From positions 3,358,518 to 3,422,517 of the forward strand of contig NZ_JACBZP010000001.1 of the NCBI RefSeq assembly GCF_013409065.1: a stretch of 64,000 nucleotides of DNA, written 5' to 3'. Both the position numbers and the translations under genes were made by a program. The stretch comes from Spelaeicoccus albus (lineage in GTDB: Bacteria > Actinomycetota > Actinomycetes > Actinomycetales > Brevibacteriaceae). Positions within the stretch are counted from its first letter, which is position 1. The number at the start of each line of letters is the position of its first letter. Positions 37,211-44,897 of the stretch are shown here, piece by piece. The notes under the pieces are model-generated. The model was not told where the DNA came from. It was given only the letters and a program-made list of their open reading frames with translations, and ran no database searches.

Positions 37211-37567
37211 TTACGGCGTGTAACCGCCGTCGCCCAGCCCGGCTTCGCGCTCGTATTTGTTCGTCAGCGGGTTATTGCCGGCGGCGAAGTAGCGGATCGG
37301 AAAGGCAAGTCCGTAGCGGCGCCATTGGTCGCGATGGACTTTTTCGTGCCGGAGGCGCTCATGTGTGAGCAGTCGCGGGTCGCTCCCGGTGACGACGGTG
37401 TCGCCCCAGCACACGCCGCCGCGCGGATATGCCCACGTCGGGACGCCGGTGCACACGCGGATGCCGTCGATCCACCGGCTCCTGCCGCCCAGGCAAGCGG
37501 AATAGAGGCTCGCCGCGTGTCCGATTGCCTGCGACGCTGCGTAGTTGACCCGTTTCATACGTTTCAC
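37211..37567 (-). CDS. Small HExxH-motif protein of unknown function
   Basis: A 118-residue protein. One moderately hydrophobic N-terminal segment (NYAASQAIGHAASLYSACLG) precedes a conserved domain ending in RHEKVHRDQWRRYG, then PLTNKYEREAGLGDGGY. HEKVH fits the HExxH zinc-protease signature, and a downstream Glu (YEREAG) could be a third ligand. Homologues in actinobacterial genomes are often mislabelled Fe-S oxidoreductases, though it has no cysteine cluster. The GTG at 37567 is preceded by GGAGGGAGAG and, just before that, by the hairpin end of a repeat array. It lies downstream of the FUSC gene on the same strand. Confidence 0.7.
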   Translation of the reverse strand: MKRMKRVNYAASQAIGHAASLYSACLGGRSRWIDGIRVCTGVPTWAYPRGGVCWGDTVVTGSDPRLLTHERLRHEKVHRDQWRRYGLAFPIRYFAAGNNPLTNKYEREAGLGDGGYTP

Positions 37568-37580
37568 GGTAACTCTCCCT

Positions 37581-37743
37581 CCGCCGAGTGGTGGCGAATG
37601 GCTGCGAAATCGGCGATTTCGCAGCCATTCGCCACCACTCGGCGGGCGGGTCCAACCGTTTGCCACCACTCGGCGGGCGGGTCCAGCCATTCGCCACCAC
37701 TCGGCGGGCGGGTCCAACCGTTCGCCACCACTCGCCGGGCGGG
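37581..37743. repeat. 31-bp-period repeat array 1 with terminal hairpin
   Basis: The core GCCGAGTGGTGGC occurs once forward (37583-37595) and four times inverted (37631, 37662, 37693, 37724; the last with one change), spaced exactly 31 bp. The forward and first inverted copies form a perfect 29-bp stem (37583-37611 / 37615-37643) with a 3-nt loop, extendable by 2 bp. Read along the FUSC gene (minus), the array begins directly at its stop codon: four tandem units, then the hairpin. No T-run follows. Period 31 excludes a coding repeat. Confidence 0.9.
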
Positions 37744-38859
37744 TCAGTCGGTGCCGGCGACGGGCGTTCGATACCGGCCAACAAATTTGACGATCCAAAC
37801 GACTATCGCCGCTACGACCCCGCCGATCAGCGTCTCGAAGAGTCGGTCCGTCAACAAGCTCTCGGTCGACATGGCCGTGCTGAGTTTTCCGACCGACAAC
37901 GCCAGCGGAGTAATGAACAGCAGCGCCACCCCATAAATCTTCCCGACGAAGATTTCGGCGCCGAACTGGCAGACGCCGATCACCAAGATCACCACGAGCA
38001 ACGGAGGCTGCAGGTACAAGTACATTCCCGCCACGACAACGCCCGCCGCCGTGCCGAGCACGCGGTGAAAGATCCGGGTAAATGCGTGCGGCGCGTACGG
38101 TCTCGGCAGCGTGGCGGCTACCGTGACGGCCGCCCAGTACCCGTGCCCCAAAGTCGTCAACGACGCCAGCCACAACGCCACAGCCAATGCCACTGTCGTT
38201 TCCAGAGCAACGCCGTACACCACCGGGTCGGAGGCGGCCCCCGGTGCGCGCGGCGACGACGTCAAAGTGCGCAGTCGCCGTCGCACGGTGTCCGGTGCCC
38301 GGCGCCGCACCATCCATCCGGACATGCACACGAGCCACGAGAACGCTGCGGCCGCTGCGGCCAGTCCGATCCGCGGCAGCACCTGCGACGGACTCGTCGG
38401 AATGATGACGCACACGCTGAAGCCGAAGACGTAAAAGATCGGTCCGAACGGGATCCACCGCATGACGCTGCTCAGGACGACGCCGCCGGCCGTAATGATG
38501 AATAGTGCGGCAAGACGCACCGGCGCCGGCCAGTCGAATGCGGCCGCGACAGTAGCGGTCGAGATCACGGTCAAGAGCGCCAGCCCGGCAACCGCCACGG
38601 TGGTGATGCGCTGCCGATAGGCCTCATAGCGTCCGTACAGGCTCGTGAACGCACCAAACGTGGCATACGCGCTCAGTTGCAGGTCCCCAAAGGCATACAG
38701 CACGAGCAATGGCGCCAGCATGGAGATGCTCGCGCGGAATGCGGCCTCAAAATCGACACGGCCGAGCCGCAAACCGGAGAAGTAGACCACTGCTCCATTA
38801 TGTGCGCGCCCTACCGCACGGCGCCGTCCCACCCCTTTTACGGCTGGCAGCCGGGGCAC
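37744..38859 (-). CDS. FUSC-family membrane protein
   Basis: A protein of up to 371 residues related to the FUSC/aromatic acid exporter (YccS/AaeB-like) families. Two blocks of hydrophobic helices (about 45-165 and 215-355) are separated by a basic loop (RRRAPDTVRRRLR). The second block contains GHGYWAAVTVAATLPRPY and FHRVLGTAAGVVVAG, the usual FUSC core. The track-length GTG start at 38859 overlaps the glycosylase gene by 22 bp. A GTG at 38790 is also possible and would start just before the first conserved helix. Substrate unknown. Confidence 0.82.
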   Translation of the reverse strand: MPRLPAVKGVGRRRAVGRAHNGAVVYFSGLRLGRVDFEAAFRASISMLAPLLVLYAFGDLQLSAYATFGAFTSLYGRYEAYRQRITTVAVAGLALLTVISTATVAAAFDWPAPVRLAALFIITAGGVVLSSVMRWIPFGPIFYVFGFSVCVIIPTSPSQVLPRIGLAAAAAAFSWLVCMSGWMVRRRAPDTVRRRLRTLTSSPRAPGAASDPVVYGVALETTVALAVALWLASLTTLGHGYWAAVTVAATLPRPYAPHAFTRIFHRVLGTAAGVVVAGMYLYLQPPLLVVILVIGVCQFGAEIFVGKIYGVALLFITPLALSVGKLSTAMSTESLLTDRLFETLIGGVVAAIVVWIVKFVGRYRTPVAGTD

Positions 38860-39725
38860 CAGAAGAGCCGGCGGGCCTGCATGAGTGCCTCACGCACGGG
38901 CGTACCGCACCGAAGACACGGCTCACCCGCGCGGTGGTAAACGAAGAACGGTACCGTTTTCCGGCCGGTCGAGTTGATGGTTCCGGTCCGGACGCCGCGT
39001 CGCATCAGCCGCGCCAGCGTCGTCCAGAGCTCGCGCGCCTCGCCGTCCGTGACGTCCCTTCCGGGGCGATACGGGTTCACACCGCACAAAAACAGCGATT
39101 CGGCGCGAAAAATGTTGCCGACGCCGGCGGCGACCGTTTGGTCCATCAACAGCGCCCCGGCGGCGACGCGGCGCGCGCGGATCCGAGCGGCGAATTCCGC
39201 GGCGGCGCCCGTGTCCTTCCGGAGCGGATCCGGCCCGAGCTTGGCGATGACCTCCCGCTTCTCGGGGCCGGTGACGACCTCGCACGCCGACGGCCCGGTC
39301 AGATCGGCGCATCCGTCGCGTCCGACAAGTCGAAGCCGGACCGCTCCGCGCGGAGCCGGCGGTACGAATCGGCCGTCGTCGTCAACGCTCCCGGTGTCTC
39401 CGGCAACTGCGGTGTCCGCCTCACCAATCCGTCGCCGCGGGGCGCCGATCGCGTGCGGTCCGGCAAACGAATCGGTACCCGTGAAGGTCCAGGCTCCGTA
39501 TAGGCCCAAGTGGACTCGCAGCCACCGCTCCGGGCCGGTCGGCGTCCCGCCGAACCCTAAGAAGAGCTGTTTGCCGTACGCCTCGGCGGCAGTCAAGGGC
39601 AACCCGTCGAGCAGCGCAGCACCGGCGGCAAACCTGCCTTGCGGGCTGGACGCCGCGAGCGGCGTTCCGCCGAACAGTTCGTCGAATGCTCGGCTCAAGC
39701 GGTGGATGGAATGTCCTTCGGGCAT
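38838..39725 (-). CDS. Fpg/Nei-family DNA glycosylase
   Basis: A 295-residue bifunctional glycosylase/AP lyase of the Nei type. It starts with the catalytic MPEGHS (Pro2, Glu3 after Met removal). The H2TH region is MDQTVAAGVGNIFRAESLF, and the zinc finger CxxC-x16-CxxC (CLRCG...CPGC) closes the protein. It excises oxidised pyrimidines. The ATG at 39725 is fixed by this catalytic N-terminus; the frame is open further upstream without meaning. Confidence 0.93.
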   Translation of the reverse strand: MPEGHSIHRLSRAFDELFGGTPLAASSPQGRFAAGAALLDGLPLTAAEAYGKQLFLGFGGTPTGPERWLRVHLGLYGAWTFTGTDSFAGPHAIGAPRRRIGEADTAVAGDTGSVDDDGRFVPPAPRGAVRLRLVGRDGCADLTGPSACEVVTGPEKREVIAKLGPDPLRKDTGAAAEFAARIRARRVAAGALLMDQTVAAGVGNIFRAESLFLCGVNPYRPGRDVTDGEARELWTTLARLMRRGVRTGTINSTGRKTVPFFVYHRAGEPCLRCGTPVREALMQARRLFWCPGCQP

Positions 39726-39831
39726 AATCAACGATCCTATGCTCCAGTGTTCCGTTACGGTGCGGCGGATGATTGACTGTTGAATGACCTCCGTCGATGC
39801 GGAGGCGATCGTCACGGTACTGGAGGCAACT

Positions 39832-40887
39832 ATGGCTGACGACACCACTCCCCCCGACAACGCAGGCACCTATGTGACGCCCGGTGAGACCTACGACCGC
39901 GACACACGGTACATTTCCGACCGGATCGCGGCCGACGGCGACTATCCGGTGGAAGCGGGCAGGTACCGGCTGATCGTCGCCCGCGCATGCCCCTGGGCCA
40001 ACCGGGCAATCATCGTGCGTCGGCTGCTCGGCCTGGAAGATGCCTTGTCGATGGGGATCTGCGGGCCCACACACGACCAGCGCAGCTGGACATTCGATCT
40101 CGATCCGGGCGGCGTCGACTCGGTGTTGGGCATCGAACGGCTCCAGCAGGCGTATTTCACCCGGTTCCCGGATTATCCGCGCGGCATCACGGTTCCGGCC
40201 ATTGTCGACATCCCGACCGGCGCCGTCGTGACGAACGACTTTCCGCAAATCACTCTCGATTTGTCGACCGAATGGACGGCGTACCATCGGGACGGCGCGC
40301 CGAACCTGTACCCCGACAAGCTCCGCGACGAAATCGACGAGGTCGCCCAGCTGGTCTACAAGGACGTCAACAACGGCGTGTACCGGGCCGGATTCGCCGG
40401 ATCGCAGGGAGCGTACGAAACCGCCTACGACAGACTGTTCGCCCGGCTCGATTGGCTCGAGGAACGGCTGACGAACCAGCGTTATCTGGTCGGCGAGACC
40501 ATCACGGAGGCCGATGTCCGGCTGTTCACCACGCTGGCCCGCTTCGACGCCGTCTACCACGGGCATTTCAAATGCAACAGGTCGAAGCTCTCCGAGATGC
40601 CGGTCCTGTGGGCCTATGCCCGCGACCTGTTCCAGACTCCGGGCTTCGGCGACACGACCGATTTCAACCACATCAAACGGCATTACTACATCGTGCACTC
40701 CGATGTGAATCCGACGGGCATCGTGCCGAAGGGCCCCGATCTGTCCGGCTGGCTCGCGCCGCATCACCGCGAGGAGCTCGGCGGCCGTCCGTTCGGCGAC
40801 GGTACTCCGCCCGGCCCGGTCGCCGCCGGCGAAGAGGTTCCGGCCGCGCATCGGGCGTCTGCCGGCGAGGTCACGGCGGACGCCTAA
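39832..40887 (+). CDS. Glutathionyl-hydroquinone reductase-like (YqjG/ECM4) GST-fold protein
   Basis: A 351-residue Xi-class GST homologue. The thioredoxin-fold part has the catalytic Cys53 in ARACPWANRA, then the family blocks DQRSWTFD, ITVPAIVD and TNDFPQI. The helical part includes YLVGETITEADVRLFTTL, and the C-terminus FNHIKRHYYIVHSDVNPTGIVP is diagnostic. These enzymes remove glutathione from quinone adducts; actinobacteria mostly use mycothiol, so mycothionyl-hydroquinones are the likely substrates here (inference). GGAGG 5 nt before the ATG at 39832 fixes the start. Repeat array 2 begins 34 bp after its stop. Confidence 0.9.
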   Translation: MADDTTPPDNAGTYVTPGETYDRDTRYISDRIAADGDYPVEAGRYRLIVARACPWANRAIIVRRLLGLEDALSMGICGPTHDQRSWTFDLDPGGVDSVLGIERLQQAYFTRFPDYPRGITVPAIVDIPTGAVVTNDFPQITLDLSTEWTAYHRDGAPNLYPDKLRDEIDEVAQLVYKDVNNGVYRAGFAGSQGAYETAYDRLFARLDWLEERLTNQRYLVGETITEADVRLFTTLARFDAVYHGHFKCNRSKLSEMPVLWAYARDLFQTPGFGDTTDFNHIKRHYYIVHSDVNPTGIVPKGPDLSGWLAPHHREELGGRPFGDGTPPGPVAAGEEVPAAHRASAGEVTADA

Positions 40888-40921
40888 CCGGCGGCCGTTG
40901 CCCAGACCCGCTTACTCACCG

Positions 40922-41077
40922 CGCCGAGTGGTGGCGAATGGCGGCCGCCCCGCGCCGAGTGGTGGCGAATGGCGGCCGCCCCGCGCCGAGTGGTGGCGAA
41001 TGGCGGCCGCCCCGCGCCGAGTGGTGGCGAATGGCGGCAAAATCAGCGATTTTGCCGCCATTCGCCACCACTCGGCG
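40922..41077. repeat. 31-bp-period repeat array 2 with terminal hairpin
   Basis: The core GCCGAGTGGTGGC occurs four times forward (40923, 40954, 40985, 41016) at exact 31-bp spacing, then once inverted (41064-41076). The last forward and the inverted copy form a perfect 29-bp stem (41016-41044 / 41048-41076) with loop AGC. Relative to the upstream gene, the order (four units, then hairpin) is the same as array 1. Compared with array 1 the stem shows paired changes (T-A to G-C and G-C to A-T), so the hairpin is kept while its sequence drifts. Confidence 0.92.
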
Positions 41078-41106
41078 GCCCGGTCACGCACCGCCCGGGA
41101 CGCCGC

Positions 41107-41829
41107 TCAGATGTCGCCGAACAATTCGACGGCGACGGCGCGCCGGCCGCCGAAGTCCTCACGCGGCGCCGTGACCATTTCGACCTGCCGCCGGGCCTGA
41201 TCCGGCACCGGATCGGCCGAGAGTGCTTCGAGATACCGACGGTGCTCGGCCAGCGACGCCACGGCCGACTCAATGCCCGCGGCGACCTCGACGGCGTGCG
41301 TGACTTCCGGCCCGGCTACCGCGATCCAGCGGACGCCGGCCCACGGCTCCTCGGTGAGCTCGGGAAAGATCCATTCGTTGGCGGCGTCGGCGACGGCGTC
41401 CAGCACGGACCTGCCGACGGCACGATGATCGGCGGTATTCCAGCCCCCGGGCCGCCAGCCGGCGTCCCGATGGTTCAGCGTGACGACGAGTTCGGGACGA
41501 TGCCGGCGGATCTGCGCAGCGATATCACGGCGCAGTTGAAGACCTTCTTCGATGCGCCCGTCCGGATAGTCGAGGAATTCCAACGCCGACACGCCCACGT
41601 GTGAGCAGGCGCGACGTTGTTCGTCGGCGCGTAGCGGCCCCGATTCATCCGGCGGCATACCGGCGATTCCTGCCTCGCCCTTCGTGGCCAACACGTACCG
41701 CACGTCCTTACCGGCCGCCGTCCAAACCGCGACAGCGGCCGCAACGCCGTATTCGGGATCGTCCGGATGGGCCATCACGACAAGCGCGCGCTGCCAGTCA
41801 TCCGGTAACGGCTTCAGCTGCTCGGTCAT
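41107..41829 (-). CDS. PIG-L/MshB-family deacetylase
   Basis: A 240-residue zinc deacetylase of the LmbE/PIG-L family. The metal site begins with AHPDDPEYG (about residues 20-28; His and the two Asp), and NTADHRAVGRSVLDAV carries the third histidine. Known actinobacterial members are MshB (mycothiol synthesis) and Mca (mycothiol conjugate amidase); this one is shorter and more like the generic PIG-L group, so I assign no gene name. AGGAGG before the ATG at 41829 sets the start. The gene converges with the GST-like gene across repeat array 2. Confidence 0.88.
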   Translation of the reverse strand: MTEQLKPLPDDWQRALVVMAHPDDPEYGVAAAVAVWTAAGKDVRYVLATKGEAGIAGMPPDESGPLRADEQRRACSHVGVSALEFLDYPDGRIEEGLQLRRDIAAQIRRHRPELVVTLNHRDAGWRPGGWNTADHRAVGRSVLDAVADAANEWIFPELTEEPWAGVRWIAVAGPEVTHAVEVAAGIESAVASLAEHRRYLEALSADPVPDQARRQVEMVTAPREDFGGRRAVAVELFGDI

Positions 41830-43436: not shown

Positions 43437-44861
43437 ATGGACACCAGCGCGCAGTCATCGATCGCCGACGCAGTGGACGACGCGCGCCGGGCATTCGCCG
43501 AGTCCCGCAGCAAGCCCGTCCGTTGGCGTCTGGCCCAGCTCGACGCGCTGGAGACCATGCTGACGCACCAGACCGCCGACTTCGAAGCTGCGTTGCAGCA
43601 CGACCTCGCCAAAAACCCTACCGAATCCTGGCTGACCGAGATCGGGTTCGTCGTCGGCGAGATCGCGCACACGAAAAAGCACCTCCGATCGTGGCTGGCC
43701 CCGCGCCGCACGCGCGTACCGGCCAGCCTGCAACCCGGCACGGCAACGGTCTTGCGCGAGCCGCTCGGCGTCGTCCTGGTCATCGCACCGTGGAACTATC
43801 CGATACAGCTGGCCCTCGGCCCCCTCGTCGGAGCGCTGGCAGCCGGCAACACGGCAGTGGTCAAGCCGAGCGAGCTGGCGCCTGCCACCGCAGCAGCCAT
43901 CGCCAAATACCTGCCCGCGTATCTGGACGAGGACGCCGTCCGCGTCGTGCAGGGCGGGCCCGAGGAGACCTCCGAGCTGCTTACCCACCGCTTCGACCAC
44001 ATTTTCTACACCGGTAACGGACGGGTCGGTCGCCTTGTCATGGAAGCCGCAGCCAAGCACCTCACGCCCGTGACGCTCGAGCTCGGCGGAAAATCGCCGG
44101 TGTTCATCGACGAATCGGTGGACTTGCCTGCTGCGGCCGACCGCATTGCCTGGGGCAAGTTTCTCAACGCCGGCCAAACGTGCGTGGCACCCGATTACGT
44201 ACTCGGCACCGCACGCACTTTGGAAAAGCTCGCACCGCTCCTGGCGGTCTCTATTCAGCGCATGTTCGGCCGCGACCCCTCGACCAGCGCCGATTACGGG
44301 CGGATCGTCAGCGACAAGCATTTCCACCGGCTGTCGGCATTCGTCCCGGTCGGCACACCGGGAGGGCCGGCCGGGTTCGGCGAGCCGGATCAGCGGACGC
44401 GGTATCTGCCGCCGACGGTGCTTCCGCGAACGGCCCCCGACGCGGCGGTCATGCGCGAAGAGATCTTCGGCCCCGTCCTGCCGCTCGTCGAGGTCGACGG
44501 GCCGCACCAGGCAATCGCCATGATCAACGCCGGCGACAAGCCGCTGTCGCTGTACGTGTTCAGCAACGACAGGTCGGTGCGGAAGACGTTCACGTACGGC
44601 ACGTCGTCCGGCGGTCTTGGATTCAACGTGCCGGTCGCGCATCTGATGGTGCCGGATTTGCCGTTCGGCGGCGTCGGCGGATCCGGGATGGGCAGGTATC
44701 ACGGCGAATATTCGGTCGACACATTCAGCCACCAGAAGGCAATTTTCTCCAAGCCGCTGCTCCCGGACACGCTTGCCGCCGTCTACCCGCCGTTCTCACG
44801 GGTCAAGGACGTGTTGATTCGCCGCGTCATCGCCCCCATGCGCCGCGCGAAAGGTGGATAG
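43437..44861 (+). CDS. Aldehyde dehydrogenase (class 3-like)
   Basis: A 474-residue ALDH. Conserved segments are VLVIAPWNYPIQLALGPLVG, FYTGNGRVGRLVMEAA, the catalytic Glu in LELGGKSP, the catalytic Cys in NAGQTCVAPDYVL, EEIFGPVLPL, and the class-3 C-terminus LPFGGVGGSGMGRYHGEYSVDTFSH. The group oxidises long-chain or aromatic aldehydes and is often bound to membranes; the C-terminal 30 residues are basic and moderately hydrophobic. A 42-bp perfect palindrome covers its stop codon. Confidence 0.94.
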   Translation: MDTSAQSSIADAVDDARRAFAESRSKPVRWRLAQLDALETMLTHQTADFEAALQHDLAKNPTESWLTEIGFVVGEIAHTKKHLRSWLAPRRTRVPASLQPGTATVLREPLGVVLVIAPWNYPIQLALGPLVGALAAGNTAVVKPSELAPATAAAIAKYLPAYLDEDAVRVVQGGPEETSELLTHRFDHIFYTGNGRVGRLVMEAAAKHLTPVTLELGGKSPVFIDESVDLPAAADRIAWGKFLNAGQTCVAPDYVLGTARTLEKLAPLLAVSIQRMFGRDPSTSADYGRIVSDKHFHRLSAFVPVGTPGGPAGFGEPDQRTRYLPPTVLPRTAPDAAVMREEIFGPVLPLVEVDGPHQAIAMINAGDKPLSLYVFSNDRSVRKTFTYGTSSGGLGFNVPVAHLMVPDLPFGGVGGSGMGRYHGEYSVDTFSHQKAIFSKPLLPDTLAAVYPPFSRVKDVLIRRVIAPMRRAKGG

Positions 44862-44897
44862 GTGCCCGGTTACCGGCCGGTAACCGGGCACCTATCC
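44856..44897. repeat. Perfect 42-bp palindrome at a gene junction
   Basis: Two 21-bp arms (44856-44876 and 44877-44897) with no spacer, containing TTACCGGCCGGTAA at the centre. It overlaps the last two codons of the aldehyde dehydrogenase and the first codons of the next frame. It can form a hairpin in RNA or serve as a dimeric protein site; no T-run follows. Confidence 0.85.

Follow-up and report, generated by a model that had tools for sequence, protein, structure and literature searches.

A REP-like family of extragenic palindromes with tandem 31-bp units, mostly at transcription-unit 3' ends, in the genome of Spelaeicoccus albus

Within a single stretch of the Spelaeicoccus albus chromosome, 64,000 nucleotides long and referred to here as the window, two genes are followed by arrays of 31-bp units joined to a long hairpin, an arrangement that raises the question of what such arrays are and whether they act as RNA or as DNA. 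The features concerned are collected in Table 1. An earlier note on this DNA described five copies of one word per array, four in one orientation at 31-bp spacing and one inverted, and motif positions bear this description out. Specifically, GCCGAGTGGTGGC occurs in array 1 at 37583 (+) and at 37631, 37662, 37693 and 37724 (-), and in array 2 at 40923, 40954, 40985 and 41016 (+) and at 41064 (-); the copy at 37724, which carries one mismatch, is the sole inexact one of the ten, all copies in array 2 being exact. The four same-orientation copies of each array follow one another at steps of exactly 31 bp, and one of the four is itself a hairpin arm, which leaves three extra units per array. At up to two mismatches the word is matched 14 times, against a mean of 4.0 and a maximum of 8 in shuffled windows, and TRF reports a period of 31 in both arrays.

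The perfect stems and 3-nt loops of the earlier description were likewise found, although the stems measure 31 and 30 bp and not 29 bp. The absence of a T-run behind the hairpins was confirmed at both arrays, and Pfam agrees with the assignment of a FUSC gene to the minus strand and a GST-like gene to the plus strand. Folding of the hairpins yields -68.3 kcal/mol (z -12.0) for array 1 and -63.6 kcal/mol (z -11.1) for array 2, while a pair of extra units folded without the hairpin has a z value of 0.7 in array 1 and -2.9 in array 2. An Rfam search of positions 37400-41250 at E values up to 1 returned eight matches, all far under the gathering score; microRNA models account for seven (best E 2e-5).

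Table 1. Coordinates of the two arrays and their neighboring genes within the window.
Feature	Position	Strand	Remarks
Predicted gene, 118 aa	37211..37567	-	without Pfam match; lies downstream of array 1
Array 1, central palindrome	37581..37645		31-bp perfect stem, 3-nt loop
Array 1, three extra 31-bp units	37646..37743	-	17-bp cores start at 37656, 37687, 37718; FUSC side of hairpin
FUSC-family gene	37744..38859	-	stop codon abuts array 1; Pfam FUSC_2
Glutathione S-transferase-like gene	39784..40887	+	upstream of array 2; Pfam GST_N_2, GST_C_2
Array 2, three extra 31-bp units	40919..41014	+	17-bp cores start at 40925, 40956, 40987
Central palindrome of array 2	41015..41077		30-bp stem, 3-nt loop
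PIG-L family gene	41107..41829	-	convergent with GST gene; array 2 between both stops

Both arrays proved to be members of a chromosome-wide family, well supported as a repeat family and defined by a 17-bp core, CGAGTGGYGGCGAAYGG. When the host genome, a single contig of 4,029,871 bp, was searched for the motif with up to three mismatches, 140 forward and 140 reverse matches were obtained, against 2 and 3 for a reversed control pattern, and the hairpin pattern, searched over the whole genome, detected 81 palindromes. A catalogue was compiled from 69 stretches taken around listed matches, plus the window; its 272 matches fall into 93 clusters, from which clusters 31 and 34 (weak, inside genes) were excluded, and five cluster pairs split by insertion sequences were merged, leaving 86 loci. 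Recurrence of the motif elsewhere in the genome, on which the earlier note had staked its reading, is thus evident from the 81 palindromes and the catalogue of at least 86 loci and at least 270 copies of the core. The aligned palindromes number 78 against the 81 found genome-wide, one of the absentees adjoining L183, and the loci are scattered evenly over the whole chromosome (KS p 0.56). Core scores within the fetched stretches exceed 15 at 269 positions and lie between 6 and 15 at only seven; since the stretches had been selected for containing matches, this gap is uninformative on decay outside them. Two of the 269 high-scoring cores touch a predicted coding sequence, both at its 3' end.

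A typical locus is composed of an inverted pair of cores whose starts lie 40 bp apart, with zero to three extra direct units per side. The commonest layouts are ++- (26 loci), +-- (20), +- (13) and ++-- (10), and the maximum of five units is reached by both window arrays and seven other loci. Four of the 86 loci are without a palindrome, one palindrome has 36 bp in place of 40, and three are split by an insertion. Core to core the palindrome measures 57 bp, extending to 63-65 bp in the window, with an A/T-rich interior at most loci. The inner stem varies among loci yet remains paired: 15 of 27 pairs are changed on both sides, in 108 cells (62 distinct rows), against averages of 9.0 pairs and 21.7 cells in shuffled controls, and slid structures perform much worse.

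Conservation is concentrated in the core. Among loci, core identity is 0.91-0.95 over 71 arms, while the last 11 nt of the linker reach 0.50 against 0.41 expected by composition in the same number of arms; linkers are C-rich, starting with CTG or CTC in 42 of 71 arms, and inside one arm their identity rises to 0.957 (20 comparisons). Comparison of the outermost core with its own arm in 77 arms placed 46 of 58 differences at positions 8, 11, 12, 14 and 15, which had previously been noticed as variable in the family, the outermost copies lying outside the stem. The outermost core is identical to its own arm in 39 of the 77 cases, and its similarity to the arm of its own locus is 0.881, which none of 2000 shuffles attained, as compared with 0.797 by chance. 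Because extra units are closer to their own arm than chance would have it, local duplication or conversion contributes to the observed conservation, and the near-identical linkers within an arm lend support to local duplication in 31-bp steps. A CRISPR-like array is ruled out by linkers that are 14 nt long, C-rich and near-identical inside an array.

Same-orientation cores are nearly always one 31-bp step apart. A distance of 31 bp was recorded 88 times, 41 bp six times, 63 bp twice, and 24, 32, 42 and 62 bp once each. Among the 12 spacings other than 31 bp, 11 deviate by no more than about 1 bp from an integral number of helical turns (10.5 bp per turn), and none of 20,000 uniform draws did as well, in a test that was devised post hoc, rests on a simple uniform null, and omitted spacings of 49, 39 and 10 bp in which the partner core scored low. 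The 62- and 63-bp spacings may each represent two 31-bp steps.

The relationship of the elements to genes was analyzed with gene calls from a purpose-written simple hexamer model and tRNAs called by ARAGORN. Of the 86 loci, 44 have convergent neighbors, 35 tandem and 7 divergent ones, while gaps that are 60 bp or longer and free of elements comprise 15 convergent, 87 tandem and 69 divergent cases; measured against these gaps, which form a local and not a random baseline because the stretches were centered on elements, convergent gaps are enriched (Fisher p 1e-13) and divergent gaps depleted (p 2e-8). The placement at gene 3' ends proposed from the two window arrays holds for most of the family, as 79 of 86 loci have the 3' end of a gene or tRNA on one or both sides; over all 123 such ends, of which six belong to tRNAs, the median distance is 29 nt. 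In tandem gaps, 33 of 36 clusters, counted before merging, lie closer to the 3' end of the upstream gene (median 29 vs. 128.5 nt). What does not generalize is the fixed order of stop codon, four units and hairpin: in the 33 tandem loci with a hairpin, the extra units divide equally, 21 lying towards the gene and 21 away from it. The like order of the two window loci is consequently a coincidence, and an element oriented with the transcript, its units upstream of the hairpin, is ruled out by the same counts.

Additional information on the elements comes from the insertion sequences that they harbor. An insertion sequence with rve and HTH domains, which we take to be IS481-like, has four full copies in the genome, all four inside repeats; three interrupt the palindrome and the fourth a linker, and their junctions show target duplications of 15 bp. 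All four copies of an IS110 element (DEDD_Tnp_IS110, Transposase_20) are likewise inside repeats, and each begins exactly after CCACCACTC of a palindrome. The 5' non-coding part of this element holds the repeat's own 12-mer, CCACCACTCGGC, an apparent target guide of the kind that a putative bridge RNA would be expected to carry; target guidance of this kind is described in the available portion of PMC11208160. The available portion of PMC1525189 reports that REP repeats are targets of IS110 and other insertion sequence families, with full association for several.

How far the family extends was addressed by searches of other genomes, which brought up no other genome of the host genus. The tandem pattern, at up to two mismatches, was matched in two of 58 relatives, by one weak 2-mismatch match each, and the hairpin pattern, at up to three mismatches, produced a single poor match when 395 further genomes of the order were searched, namely a palindrome in G250 with different inner and outer sequence. 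Two genomes representing further genera of the taxonomic family, G002 and G003, are outside the 395-genome list and were covered by the tandem-pattern search of 58 relatives, G003 also by a 10% sample. In this sampled tenth of G003, the element is absent at all four junctions whose two neighbors are both conserved, and no different "dialect" of the repeat family was found, the sample containing five ordinary hairpins and locus-specific tandem repeats. Another palindromic word, CCGGACG..CGTCCGG, lies inside predicted genes at nine of nine listed places. Across 84,980 species genomes, a collection that may not have included the host genome, the exact tandem pattern was matched by one stretch, L061, without a second core of this type, and an exact 18-mer had no match in a viral contig collection. 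A widespread family is therefore not supported by the searches of relatives, order, species and viruses, and the family is so far known from one genome among those searched.

Whether the elements act as RNA can be judged from several of these observations. In a bidirectional RNA element, transcripts arriving from both directions would form the hairpin, which would either bring about termination with no need of a U-tract or shield the 3' end of the mRNA; the extra units would then be by-products. Placement at 3' ends, including six tRNA ends, and a stable, strongly covarying hairpin speak for such an element, as does the rarity of any other T-tailed hairpin in convergent gaps (1 of 43 with an element, 2 of 15 without). 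T-tailed hairpins nevertheless stand beside elements in 6 of 37 tandem gaps (8 of 85 without an element) and in 5 of 11 divergent gaps (6 of 65 without); taken by gap type, these counts, made with elements masked and no shuffled control for either set of gaps, reveal no clear replacement of T-tailed hairpins by elements. Further difficulties are that TTT follows the hairpin foot within 14 nt on only 4 of 156 sides, that unpaired extra units still keep the core, and that G.U mismatches are no commoner than A.C mismatches (7 each) when tandem loci are read on the sense strand, which in this small sample gives no signal of RNA-level selection through wobble pairs. Since the equal wobble counts, near-absent T-runs, constrained unpaired cores and turn-wise spacing all favor a strand-symmetric role at the level of DNA, such a role is the likeliest of the readings, with a U-less bidirectional terminator as a close rival; the RNA element as a whole we regard as somewhat unlikely.

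Alternatively, the elements could be selfish REP-like or MITE-like repeats of no use to the host, propagated by an enzyme that has been lost or has escaped detection, in which case template switching would keep palindromes perfect, slippage would multiply units, and 3' gaps would simply tolerate insertion. Restriction to a single genome among those searched, absence from the four conserved junctions in the G003 sample, evident local duplication, and the sharing of a common linker and inner stem by some loci (e.g., 3428413 and 3436626 in L116) are all in keeping with this account. It is opposed by the lack of a Y1 transposase match, by the divergence of linkers where core and spacing have not diverged, and by the scarcity of decayed cores in the fetched stretches, and on balance we hold it to be unlikely. 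Preferred instead is the reading that the elements are RAYT-less, REP-like, strand-symmetric boundaries of transcription units, probably bound by a host protein. The elements would then act at the DNA level, equally from either side, with the 17-bp core as the recognition sequence of a putative DNA-binding protein that would sit on the inverted pair and the extra units along one face of the helix. Together with the palindrome as hairpin or cruciform, the bound array would constitute a two-way boundary, limiting read-through and collision of adjacent transcription units, while extra units may arise at least partly via local 31-bp duplication and would be retained only if helical phase is preserved. 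Several facts count against this protein-site reading: stem covariation is not needed for binding of double-stranded DNA, local duplication accounts for part of the core conservation, and four loci lack a palindrome, one palindrome has 36 bp and seven loci are divergent. The mechanism, a two-way boundary bound by a putative protein, is accordingly put forward tentatively, at a little less than an even chance. Its fullest form, a lineage-specific class of boundary in which phase-locked arrays of 17-bp protein sites surround a cruciform-capable palindrome at some 80 transcription-unit ends, insulating neighbors by means of a dedicated putative binding protein and with no transposase partner, is distinctly improbable. 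The three options of the earlier note, a 3'-UTR processing or stability element, a protein-binding array and a mobile palindromic repeat, may all stand.

If the preferred reading is true, gene ends can be occupied by REP-like repeats in the absence of a RAYT system, and such repeats can carry helically phased arrays of protein sites; their role at transcript ends then becomes testable in one genome, which offers some 80 natural replicates of varying unit number. Moreover, two unrelated insertion sequences land in this repeat family, one of them with an apparent guide, which makes for a compact system in which to study target choice by bridge RNA.

Several known systems invite comparison with this family. 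BOX elements of Streptococcus pneumoniae are also intergenic and modular, their inner modules being repeated in tandem a variable number of times, whereas here the central palindrome is fixed and the tandem units on its flanks are copies of its arm. Intrinsic terminators, among which "I-shaped" forms dispense with a U-tract, resemble the elements in having a stable hairpin, here at a median of 29 nt from the facing 3' end, and differ in that the present hairpins belong to a repeated sequence family, nearly lack T-runs and are accompanied by conserved unpaired extra units.

The closest known kind is REP/BIME. The earlier note knew of no described family with this layout, and it is right in part: among the papers listed by a search of mostly open-access text, neither the sequence nor the tandem layout was found and none describes the family, and the ten listed of the 77 papers that contain a 10-mer of the motif are unrelated. 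The available text of PMC3733652 does not contain the word actinobacteria, and the available portion of PMC12306157 names actinobacterial genomes among those surveyed for REPs, with no particulars of the layout there. Like the REP/BIME-RAYT system, the present family is built on a high-copy extragenic palindrome, here in 81 instances; REP elements are, moreover, often located between convergent genes and preferred as targets by insertion sequences including IS110 (PMC1525189, in its available portion), and they form clusters of copies in both orientations (PMC2817692 and PMC3733652, likewise). Binding of gyrase, IHF or Pol I is another trait ascribed to REP/BIME. REP palindromes, in contrast, measure 20-40 bp and those described here 57-65 bp, and the extra copies are here direct repeats mostly at whole helical turns and there alternating REPs. 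The GTAG/CGTC tag is absent from the base composition of 172 outer flanks, which are C-rich with a weak CGC before the core, and PF01797, the Y1 (RAYT) transposase, has no match in the host genome at E values up to 10, so that no RAYT partner was found there by this model; a control search with PF01797 found matches in 10 of 14 genomes, six of them above the cut-off. Taken together, these data describe a REP/BIME-like family of extragenic elements, located mostly at transcription-unit 3' ends in one genome, that departs from REP/BIME in tag, palindrome size and Y1 transposase, agrees with it in placement, copy number and targeting by insertion sequences, and has phased tandem units as its unusual trait.

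In the S. albus genome, all four copies of an IS110 element are inserted at one and the same base within the repeat palindrome, and CCACCACTCGGC is present in the 5' non-coding part of the element, where, judging from sequence, it is likely to serve as a bridge-RNA target guide directed at the repeat family. Similarly, each of the four full copies of a second element, which we take to be IS481-like, lies within a repeat array (genome stretches L072, L075, L080 and L118), three in the palindrome and one in a linker between neighbouring cores, with target duplications of 15 bp.

Three far-apart repeat elements have an inner segment in common, GCAAAACGCCC.CCATTGGCC, part of which is not palindromic; this suggests that the three form a subfamily copied between loci.

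Locations of the insertions and repeats
Feature	Stretch	Position
IS110 copy 1, in repeat palindrome	L071	genome 583510
IS110 copy 2, in repeat palindrome	L089	genome 1944136
IS110 copy 3, in repeat palindrome	L123	genome 3785030
IS110 copy 4, in repeat palindrome	L183	genome 1876122
Element with inner segment	L064	3002-3058
Element with inner segment	L102	3000-3056
Element with inner segment	L124	2961-3017
G003 tandem repeat, example	L170	7361-7474
G003 tandem repeat, example	L171	10700-10808
G003 tandem repeat, example	L169	9938-10062

Outside the repeat family, another perfect hairpin (window 44856-44897; 19-bp stem, 4-nt loop) overlaps the start of one ORF and the stop of the preceding, presumably aldehyde-dehydrogenase-like, ORF (43437-44861).

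Within the sampled tenth (L161-L180) of G003, a same-family genome from another genus, 8 of the 34 convergent gaps contain tandem repeats, as do 14 of the 100 tandem gaps and 4 of the 55 divergent ones; in contrast to the S. albus family, the units of these repeats vary between sites.
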